Below are positions 22,691-58,929 of a stretch of 64,000 bases of DNA, piece after piece; positions within the stretch are counted from its first letter, which is position 1, and each line of letters opens with the position of its first letter. Under the pieces are notes generated by a model that was not told the DNA's origin, did not search any database, and was given only the letters and a program-made list of their open reading frames with translations. Position numbers and translations under genes: made by a program. This DNA comes from Oscillospiraceae bacterium (lineage in GTDB: Bacteria > Bacillota > Clostridia > Oscillospirales > SIG627), in contig SVRV01000006.1 in NCBI GenBank assembly GCA_015064635.1, positions 31,494 to 95,493 of the forward strand, written 5' to 3'.

Positions 22691-22765
22691 GCTGGTGTGG
22701 CTCAACGGTAGAGCAGCTGATTTGTAATCAGCAGGTTGGGGGTTCGATTCCCTTCACCAGCTCCA
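22691..22765 (+). tRNA. tRNA-Thr(TGT), with encoded CCA
   Basis: Cloverleaf: GCTGGTG acceptor, anticodon loop TTTGTAA, GGTTCGATTCC T-arm, CACCAGC-T-CCA. Confidence 0.96.
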
Positions 22766-22771
22766 TAAGAT

Positions 22772-22856
22772 GGGAGCGTTCCCGAGTGGCCAAAGGGGGC
22801 AGACTGTAAATCTGTTGTCAGTGACTTCGGTGGTCCGAATCCACCCGCTCCCACCA
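22772..22856 (+). tRNA. tRNA-Tyr(GTA), class II, with encoded CCA
   Basis: GGGAGCG acceptor, anticodon loop CTGTAAA, long variable arm, CGCTCCC-A-CCA. Confidence 0.96.
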
Positions 22857-22858
22857 GA

Positions 22859-22896
22859 AAAAAGCATCAATCTTGATACAAGATTGATGCTTTTTT
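22859..22896 (+). terminator. Terminator of the tRNA operon
   Basis: AAAAAGCATCAATCTTGATACAAGATTGATGCTTTTTT. Confidence 0.9.
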
Positions 22897-22897
22897 C

Positions 22898-23066
22898 AAC
22901 TAAATCCGTCTTTGCAGACGGAATAAATCAATCTTCGATTGATGATATCTGCTACGCAGATGAAATCGCCTGCGGCGAATTAAAGACGGATTTAATTTCA
23001 TCGAAGCCGCAAGGCTTTGATTTCATCCAAACTTGTTTGGATTTCATCGTGCTGTGCACGATTTCA
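22898..23066 (+). repeat. Multi-hairpin structured repeat, copy 1 (downstream of tRNA-Tyr)
   Basis: AACTAAATCCGTCTTT ... AAAGACGGATTTAATTTCATC..., chain of ATC-stem-loop-GAT hairpins; second copy (inverted) at 58648-58812. Confidence 0.85.
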
Positions 23067-23117
23067 TTATTGAAATATTTTAGGCTTGTGGTATAATGTC
23101 ATAAAGAGGTGTTTTAA

Positions 23118-23253
23118 ATGGCAGAAAATAAGTTAGCAGAATTATCTATGGATTTTGCAGTTTGATGTTTCTTCACTTATACATAATTGTGGTGTAATCC
23201 GCAAAATGCTCATCTCCTCCATCAATACCGCCAAGCAAAATATGGAAAATTAA
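23118..23253 (+). pseudogene. Remnant of four-helix-bundle protein (S23/IVP-like)
   Basis: MAENKLAELSMDFAV N-terminus then, in another frame, ...IHNCGVIRKMLISSINTAKQNMEN* C-terminus; middle deleted. Confidence 0.6.
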
Positions 23254-23294
23254 AATAACATTATTATTCACCGTCACAAAAAGTGGCGGTTTCT

Positions 23295-23500
23295 TTTATT
23301 ATATAGGAAATTGCATCGCAATTTGCATATAACAAACAAAGTCTACCTATAAAATTTGTGAGCGTTAGCGAACATCAGTTGCCGAAGGCGACTTTTTTAT
23401 TATATAGGAAATTGCATCGCAATTTGCATATAACAAACAAAGTCTACCTATGAAATTTGTGAGCGTTAGCGAACATCAGTTGCCGAAGGCGACTTTTTTA
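23295..23500. repeat. Two tandem ~101-bp direct repeats with internal mini-hairpins
   Basis: TATATAGGAAATTGCATCGCAATTTGCATATAACAAACAAAGTCTACCTAT(A/G)AAATTTGTGAGCGTTAGCGAACATCAGTTGCCGAAGGCGACTTTTTTA occurs twice (offset 101). Confidence 0.95.
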
Positions 23501-41763: not shown

Positions 41764-42045
41764 TAAAAGCTCGTCCCAAAGATATGATCCTTGAGACGAG
41801 CATAATAAACAACGCCCGCGGTACCACTCAAGTTGCGGACTCGCCGCCTCTCTTGGAATCAATCAATTCCTATGCATTTACGCAGCAATCACGGAGAGGG
41901 TCTACTCACAAATGCTTTCTTCCTCTCGGCTCGGAAGCTACAAATACCGATATCTATCTGCGACTCTCACCAAACGTCGCTTCTCTTTGCATAAATAATT
42001 CGGTATACTCTTCGTCAAAGCCTTTCCTTGAATATAAGAAGTATA
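41764..42045 (-). ncRNA. T-box leader (probable Val specifier GTA at 41939-41941)
   Basis: Minus-strand T-box GAGTGGTACCGCGGGCG, terminator GCTCGTCTCAAGGATCATATCTTTGGGACGAGCTTTT, stem I with AGTA loop-E motif and GGTG apical element. Confidence 0.88.
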
Positions 42046-44373: not shown

Positions 44374-44640
44374 AAACCCGTCTCAAAGATTTTTCTTTGA
44401 GACGGGTGAAATTAACTCATCCGCGGTACCACTCAAATTGCAGGAGACCTGCCACTCTTGGAATCAATCAATTCCTATGCATTTACGCAGCAATCACGGG
44501 AACACTTACTTGAGAACTTTCAGCATTCCGGCTCGGAAGTGATAGGATACTTTGTCGATTAGTTACTGACTCGCACCAAACGTCAGCTCTCTGGAAACAA
44601 CCTTCAAAACCGTCTTCGTCACAGCCTTTAAATATTTCGG
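44374..44640 (-). ncRNA. T-box leader (probable Ile specifier ATC at 44541-44543)
   Basis: Minus-strand TTTGAGTGGTACCGCGG, terminator ACCCGTCTCAAAGAAAAATCTTTGAGACGGGTTTT. Confidence 0.88.
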
Positions 44641-58540: not shown

Positions 58541-58647
58541 ATCATTGTATATTATATCACATTATCTGTCCCATAAAAAGGACAGCAAATTGACACGCCC
58601 CCTGTCATGCATCCAACTTTTTATCAAGGTTAAATTTATCAATTTAG

Positions 58648-58812
58648 TGAAATCGTGCAAAGCACGATGAAATCCAAACAAGTTTGGATGAAATCCTCGC
58701 TCGGCTCGGATGAAATTAAATCCGTCTTTATATCCTTGCGAAGCAAGATTTCATCACGAAGTGATTTCATCCTCCGAATGAGGATTTATCCCGTCGCAAG
58801 ACGGATTTAGTT
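58648..58812 (-). repeat. Multi-hairpin structured repeat, copy 2 (downstream of tRNA-Val on minus strand)
   Basis: Reverse complement shares AACTAAATCCGTCTT... AAAGACGGATTTAATTTCATC ... ATCCAAACTTGTTTGGATTTCATCGTGCTTTGCACGATTTCA with 22898-23066. Confidence 0.85.
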
Positions 58813-58813
58813 A

Positions 58814-58853
58814 AAAAAGACCTTAACTTTTTATCAAAGTTAAGGTCTTTTTC
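58814..58853 (-). terminator. Terminator of tRNA-Val
   Basis: Minus strand AAAAAGACCTTAACTTTGATAAAAAGTTAAGGTCTTTTTT. Confidence 0.9.
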
Positions 58854-58929
58854 TGGTGGGGACTACAGGGCTCGAACCTGTGACCCTCTGCTTGTAAGGC
58901 AGATGCTCTCCCAGCTGAGCTAAACCCCC
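58854..58929 (-). tRNA. tRNA-Val(TAC), with encoded CCA
   Basis: Minus strand GGGGGTTTAGCTCAGCTGGGAGAGCATCTGCCTTACAAGCAGAGGGTCACAGGTTCGAGCCCTGTAGTCCCCACCA; loop CTTACAA. Confidence 0.96.

Follow-up and report, generated by a model that had tools for sequence, protein, structure and literature searches.

Human-gut metagenomes yielded the Gut-1 RNA (RF01706), published in 2010 as a probable non-coding RNA without a cultured host and listed by Rfam as an sRNA (PMC2864571). Within the window (the whole stretch of 64,000 nucleotides of Oscillospiraceae DNA analyzed here), positions 22897-22971 match its model with 60.3 bits against a family cut-off of 50 and, as with the family itself, relatives are found in gut bacteria. 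The match covers only the 5' half of a longer hairpin array; the Gut-1 family description consulted mentions neither the array as a whole nor its inverted 3' half, its position at a tRNA end or the neighboring gene for a small four-helix-bundle (4HB) protein.

The only family matched by the 4HB protein is PF05635, whose profile is that of the "23S rRNA-intervening sequence protein," and its sequence matches relatives with solved five-chain structures (2RLD and 2GSC). PF05635 proteins are related by fold to Avd of the diversity-generating retroelements (PMC10053308). With the intervening sequences (IVS/IVP) of 23S rRNA, the locus shares a PF05635 protein, short complementary repeated words and a location within or beside genes for structural RNAs. 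The structural RNA hosts of intervening sequences are 23S rRNA and RNase P RNA, whereas units of the present kind follow the ends of tRNA genes or ORFs, that of the window lying behind tRNA-Tyr rather than within a ribosomal RNA gene. Its PF05635 gene is decayed; intact ones are present on contig C15 and at seven other loci of the same genome (G000). Complementarity is seen in the words and in the outer arms, but instead of enclosing the gene both sets precede it, and the words alternate with hairpins.

Diversity-generating retroelements are comparable in that a structured RNA stands beside the gene of the Avd-like protein, but a profile search of the window genome G000 (90% complete) found no RVT_1. 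The REP/BIME sequences and their RAYT transposases offer dispersed extragenic hairpins, inverted pairs and constant short words; in contrast, G000 has no Y1 transposase (one was found in G007), and window-type units follow CCA ends or terminators, often with a 4HB gene. Cyanobacterial STRRs are heptanucleotide direct repeats. Repeats of this length (TAACTGA and others) have been described in intergenic DNA (PMC4679880) and resemble the tandem 7-nt words around 4HB genes of other Bacillota; unlike the arrays, they have no hairpins between the words, and a text search of PMC4679880 found no link to 4HB proteins or IVS. No paper connecting the arrays to PF05635 was found among the open-access papers searched.

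Anatomy of the Hairpin Array

The features of the locus, and of its relative within the window, are as follows.

22691-22765, plus strand: tRNA-Thr(TGT), host gene (ARAGORN; Rfam)
22772-22856, plus strand: tRNA-Tyr(GTA) with encoded CCA end, the putative docking site (ARAGORN; Rfam)
22857-22897, plus strand: perfect terminator hairpin, from the first base after the tRNA-Tyr CCA onward (sequence; relatives)
22897-22971, plus strand: Gut-1 match (Rfam RF01706)
22898-23066, plus strand: hairpin array, with outer arm, hp0, six hairpins, and linker words in the 5' half that are matched by their reverse complement in the 3' half
22901-22911, plus strand: arm a (TAAATCCGTCT), an outer arm, pairing with a' (in hp0) or a'' (at the center) (covariation of a/a'/a'')
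22906-22921, plus strand: hp0
22917-22921, plus strand: a' (GACGG), local partner of arm a (covariation)
22927-22943, 22947-22961 and 22966-22978, plus strand: hairpins h1, h2 and h3
22984-22994, plus strand: a'' (AGACGGATTTA), the other outer arm and long-range partner of arm a (covariation)
23000-23062, plus strand: 3' half, comprising h4 (23000-23021), h5 (23025-23042) and h6 (23046-23062) with TTC/ATTTCAT words between (sequence)
23070-23097, plus strand: sigma-70-type promoter TTGAAA-N16-TATAAT, directly 3' of the array
23118-23253, plus strand: 4HB (PF05635) pseudogene (tblastn; family profile)
23270-23290, plus strand: 4HB gene terminator, with a similar one in the C15 copy
58645-58812, minus strand: second array, of the same subfamily
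58813-58853, minus strand: terminator hairpin separating tRNA-Val from the second array
58854-58929, minus strand: tRNA-Val(TAC), the gene hosting the second array (ARAGORN)

As an earlier sequence-only reading had proposed, a chain of seven hairpins stands directly 3' of the tRNA-Tyr terminator, with the coordinates and sequence it gave; as RNA, the array folds at -61.2 kcal/mol (z = -6.0 versus dinucleotide shuffles). The relative that it placed at 58648-58812 was recovered at 58645-58812 on the minus strand (z = -5.4 in the same comparison), where it scores 46.4 bits with the Gut-1 model, below the cut-off of 50. Among relatives of the window array, the terminator travels together with the array. 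Full arrays are approximately 170 nt long and maintain a common order across loci: arm a, hp0 (a:a'), word-hairpin repeats, a'', and then hairpin-word' repeats, a word being a 6-8-nt linker between hairpins and word' its reverse complement. The GAA noticed before the center and the TTC after it were borne out and generalize to this 6-8-nt word with its reverse complement on the 3' side. The last two hairpins, thought to be nearly invariant, are so within the subfamily (both window copies and, in part, those of C15 and G010) but not in the wider family. The Gut-1 identity of the 5' half, the promoter with its decayed 4HB gene and the locus-specific complementary words formed no part of that reading.

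Copies, Linker Words and Selection on Structure

A third full copy follows tRNA-Ser in the same genome (G000:C15:31500-31678), and G000 holds 34-35 partial Gut-1-type matches, some of which represent both halves of one array; the Gut-1 model often matches both strands of a single array because the 3' half is the same design inverted. Of the 22 genomes of the window's family, 20 contain Gut-1 matches, with a maximum of 46 in one genome; in a class-wide sample of 291 genomes, 33 contain them. The control genomes gave none over the cut-off. Named records with the full terminator and array are Clostridia and Oscillospiraceae MAGs. Most of the genomes are incomplete MAGs and arrays break assemblies, with many copies at contig ends, which biases both the copy numbers and the flanks.

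The linker words are of 14 kinds (including GTGAAAT, ATGAAAT, GTGAAGT, ATGAAGC, GTGATAT, GTGATGT, GCGATAT, AGCTAAAT, TGAATT, and ATGGAAT) that differ between loci and match within a locus. At 34 of 51 loci, two or more copies of a 6-mer are followed by two or more of its reverse complement (at least five in total), a pattern with a mean near zero in shuffles at most loci. When segments were bounded by the words alone, with pairing unused, 75% of the 147 obtained folded below -2 kcal/mol, compared to 21% of chimeras that joined halves of separate loci and 17% of shuffles; the segments are hairpins of unrelated sequence, and the arms thus differ and yet stay paired, as had been claimed. The outer arm is 98% paired across 14 sequences, with double changes between G-C and A-U and between U-A and C-G, and the arms a, a', and a'' change together, indicating that two mutually exclusive helices are both maintained. 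Selection on structure is supported by these three lines of evidence. The sequence-only reading had named as counting against it a family of just two copies, a lack of covariation and random placement; what was found are many copies, arms that change together and a preference for tRNA ends.

In many arrays, one hairpin carries a 5'-GA/GA-3' tandem mismatch, of which 17 were found on the sense strand versus 0.9 expected, some of the 17 being homologous copies; in the second array of the window it is h4. These mismatches suggest that the single-stranded sense sequence matters. A strand test by the count of G-T versus A-C pairs in the clean set gave 6 to 2 (p = 0.29, not significant).

The Associated Four-Helix-Bundle Gene

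In the window pseudogene, the first 15 codons (93% identity to the C15 copy) are joined to the last ~26-30 (88%), with ~70 middle codons deleted, and because of this internal deletion the window copy is considered a relic. Promoters similar to that of the window precede 28 of 51 4HB genes, compared to 35% in shuffles; lying 3' of the array, the promoter leaves the array outside the 4HB mRNA. A 4HB gene was also looked for behind the second array, and none was found. Directly after the decayed unit, positions 23294-23495 hold two tandem copies, 99% identical, of a 101-bp sequence made up of short hairpins (GAAATTGC-ATC-GCAATTT and others).

Across the 22 genomes of the window's family, 45 of 51 4HB genes have an array or word set upstream (defined as four or more hairpins or a word score of 5 or more), compared to 33 of 150 control genes drawn from the window and from loci that are themselves mostly array-bearing (p = 2.7e-17). 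Seven of the eight PF05635 genes of G000 lie directly behind an array. Moreover, the kind of word, as assigned by eye, tracks the identity of the 4HB protein (Mantel p = 5e-4; 68% identity with the same word versus 47%). The small Avd-like protein is thereby a first candidate partner for Gut-1, a long-unexplained RNA family.

Several of the loci that lack hairpin arrays (L221, L227, L230, L241, and L255) have tandem 7-nt words in their stead. In other Bacillota, 4HB genes are situated inside 23S rRNA, inside RNase P RNA, or after ORF stops; upstream of them, a sharp repeat signal appears at lag 7, frequently matched by a complementary signal downstream. This suggests that hairpin arrays may be word repeats with hairpins inserted between the words. 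In two such loci of other Bacillota (L289 and L291), the gene for RNase P class A RNA measures ~775 bp for a 367-position model and is split by an insert containing a PF05635 gene between complementary 7-nt repeats.

Position After tRNA Ends and Units Shared Between Loci

The units sit directly after tRNA 3' ends (CCA) or ORF stop codons. A same-strand tRNA is directly upstream of at least 26 of the 51 4HB loci (27 with L218, where the tRNA stands behind a triple array), and roughly nine of about 21 visible tRNA units of G000, as read by eye, carry an array, in support of an enrichment of copies 3' of tRNA genes. Shorter arrays without a protein gene lie close behind ORF stop codons, several of them as near-identical copies.

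Near-identical units of terminator and array are found behind different tRNAs (Leu, Tyr, and others) and in different genera, and their identity begins exactly after the CCA; in the closest pairs, 95-99 of 100 positions are identical to the right of the CCA and 11-16 of 30 to its left. Other pairs have the terminator in common and the hairpins only in part. A given tRNA slot also holds different elements in different genomes, as between Met and Glu (L225 and L248) and at Gln (L231, L234, and L269). Units could have become common to several loci through gene conversion between existing arrays. An empty site with a target duplication was sought and no clean one was found, the orthologous contig of G010 ending inside the array; likewise, no mobility enzyme was found near arrays and no array match in phage and plasmid collections. 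For arrays that follow 3' fragments of tRNAs (L198 and L200), a 5' truncation of the retro type was weighed as an explanation, but on viral contig L391 such a fragment follows an integrase-like end (by eye), making prophage att sites the simpler cause; a match in L392 was attributed to chance.

Between tRNA-Pro and the 4HB gene of L218/L205 (G000:C1:88600-89180), three tandem arrays follow one another with a period of ~202 bp, their junctions at a repeated terminator piece. L223 has direct repeats of the terminator and first ~20 array bases at positions 1223 and 2098 (reverse strand numbering), 875 bp apart on either side of the array and 4HB gene. Together with ~85 bp from a gene's 3' end, the same array and 4HB unit occurs in both L203 and L204; in L203, where the 4HB gene is degenerate, the unit immediately follows the stop codon of what, by eye, is a RelE-like gene.

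Nature of the Unit

The array is read here, with a probability of about 0.6, as the non-coding half of a dispersing unit composed of terminator, hairpin array, promoter and 4HB gene. This unit is probably best regarded as related to the rRNA intervening sequences and as spreading horizontally in gut Clostridia. The array is proposed to act as a single-stranded, sense-strand structure, either as RNA from read-through of the tRNA terminator, by which any transcription of the array would have to occur, or as ssDNA. Given that arm a has alternative partners (a' or a'') and that the words are complementary, two folds are possible: the hairpins may form independently, one after another, or they may branch off a trunk built of word-word helices. 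A pentamer of the 4HB protein would recognize the array through its word and hairpin repeats, and the array would then serve as a cis-acting handle for copying or moving the unit. With the second array, which has no 4HB gene, any movement would need the protein in trans. An RNA released at the CCA would start at the left end of the unit, which would explain the junction, although array-free tRNAs in G000 often also have terminators starting at the CCA.

Alternatively, the arrays may be a non-mobile regulatory or stability RNA, a 3' trailer of tRNA operons or mRNAs for protection, processing or termination, with the 4HB protein as its chaperone. The location after tRNA and ORF ends with terminators, the strong folding of both window arrays and the classification of Gut-1 as an sRNA (PMC2864571) all agree with such a role. 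It is nevertheless judged unlikely, as near-identical multi-copy units at unrelated sites and in unrelated genera, the varied occupants of a single tRNA slot and the decay of the 4HB gene while the array stays each fit an element better.

Less probable still is a palindrome acting at the DNA level, similar to REP/BIME or to MITE-like ends, in which the inverted halves would bind a transposase or architectural protein and the hairpins would form in cruciforms or during ssDNA transposition. Inverted halves with repeated words, the character of the arrays as short, dispersed extragenic palindromes and the match of the Gut-1 model to both strands are all features expected of one, but Y1_Tnp is absent from G000, the guide tetranucleotide of REP sequences does not occur as such and the tandem G-A motif is conspicuous on the sense strand. 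A toxin-antitoxin-like or defense unit of type III layout, with a repeat RNA neutralizing the 4HB protein, is very improbable: a repeat array does precede a small protein gene and its words track that protein, but in place of a ToxN-like endoribonuclease and a terminator between repeats and toxin, there is a protein that matches no endoribonuclease family and a promoter, and most Gut-1 matches in G000 have no adjoining 4HB gene. Chance or assembly artefact, suggested by the copies at contig ends and the mirror-image misassembly of contig L199, can be dismissed given the shuffle and chimera controls and the copies well inside contigs of many genomes.

The dispersing unit invites a broader proposal, advanced tentatively and at well below even odds: it may represent a mobile element of an undescribed type, in which a single-stranded array of hairpins and words, equipped with an Avd-like pentamer of its own, docks at mature tRNA CCA ends and at ORF ends; the rRNA intervening sequences, the RNase P insertions and Gut-1 RNA would then be different faces of this one type. 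This would link the orphan Gut-1, the PF05635/Avd-like protein of rRNA intervening sequences and the intergenic heptanucleotide repeats. If true, the predicted ligand of the 4HB protein is its own word array, the mobility of intervening sequences becomes testable and tRNA 3' ends serve for the docking of units much smaller than phages or ICEs.

Other Repeats

A second tRNA-end element, of ~180 bp, was observed at the G000 tRNAs C33:9854, C36:104874, C37:22507, C32:30226, C50:52807, C22:136475, and C22:136048; its loci are L362, L357, L361, L367, L368, L377, and L378, the last with a tandem. When compared to Rfam at E up to 0.5, it matched no family beyond likely chance matches. The element begins with an inverted copy of the host tRNA T-arm, continues with a hairpin (AAAACAGTCC-TGT-GGACTGTTTT) within a GGGACAAAGC/GCTTTGTGTCC stem, and ends with a repeat of the 3' end of the tRNA, CCA included, which a terminator usually follows. 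Elsewhere in the window, 41816-41894 and 44421-44499, both between long ORFs, are 89% similar; the former has no gathering-level T-box match, and the latter lies at a T-box leader (44395-44631).
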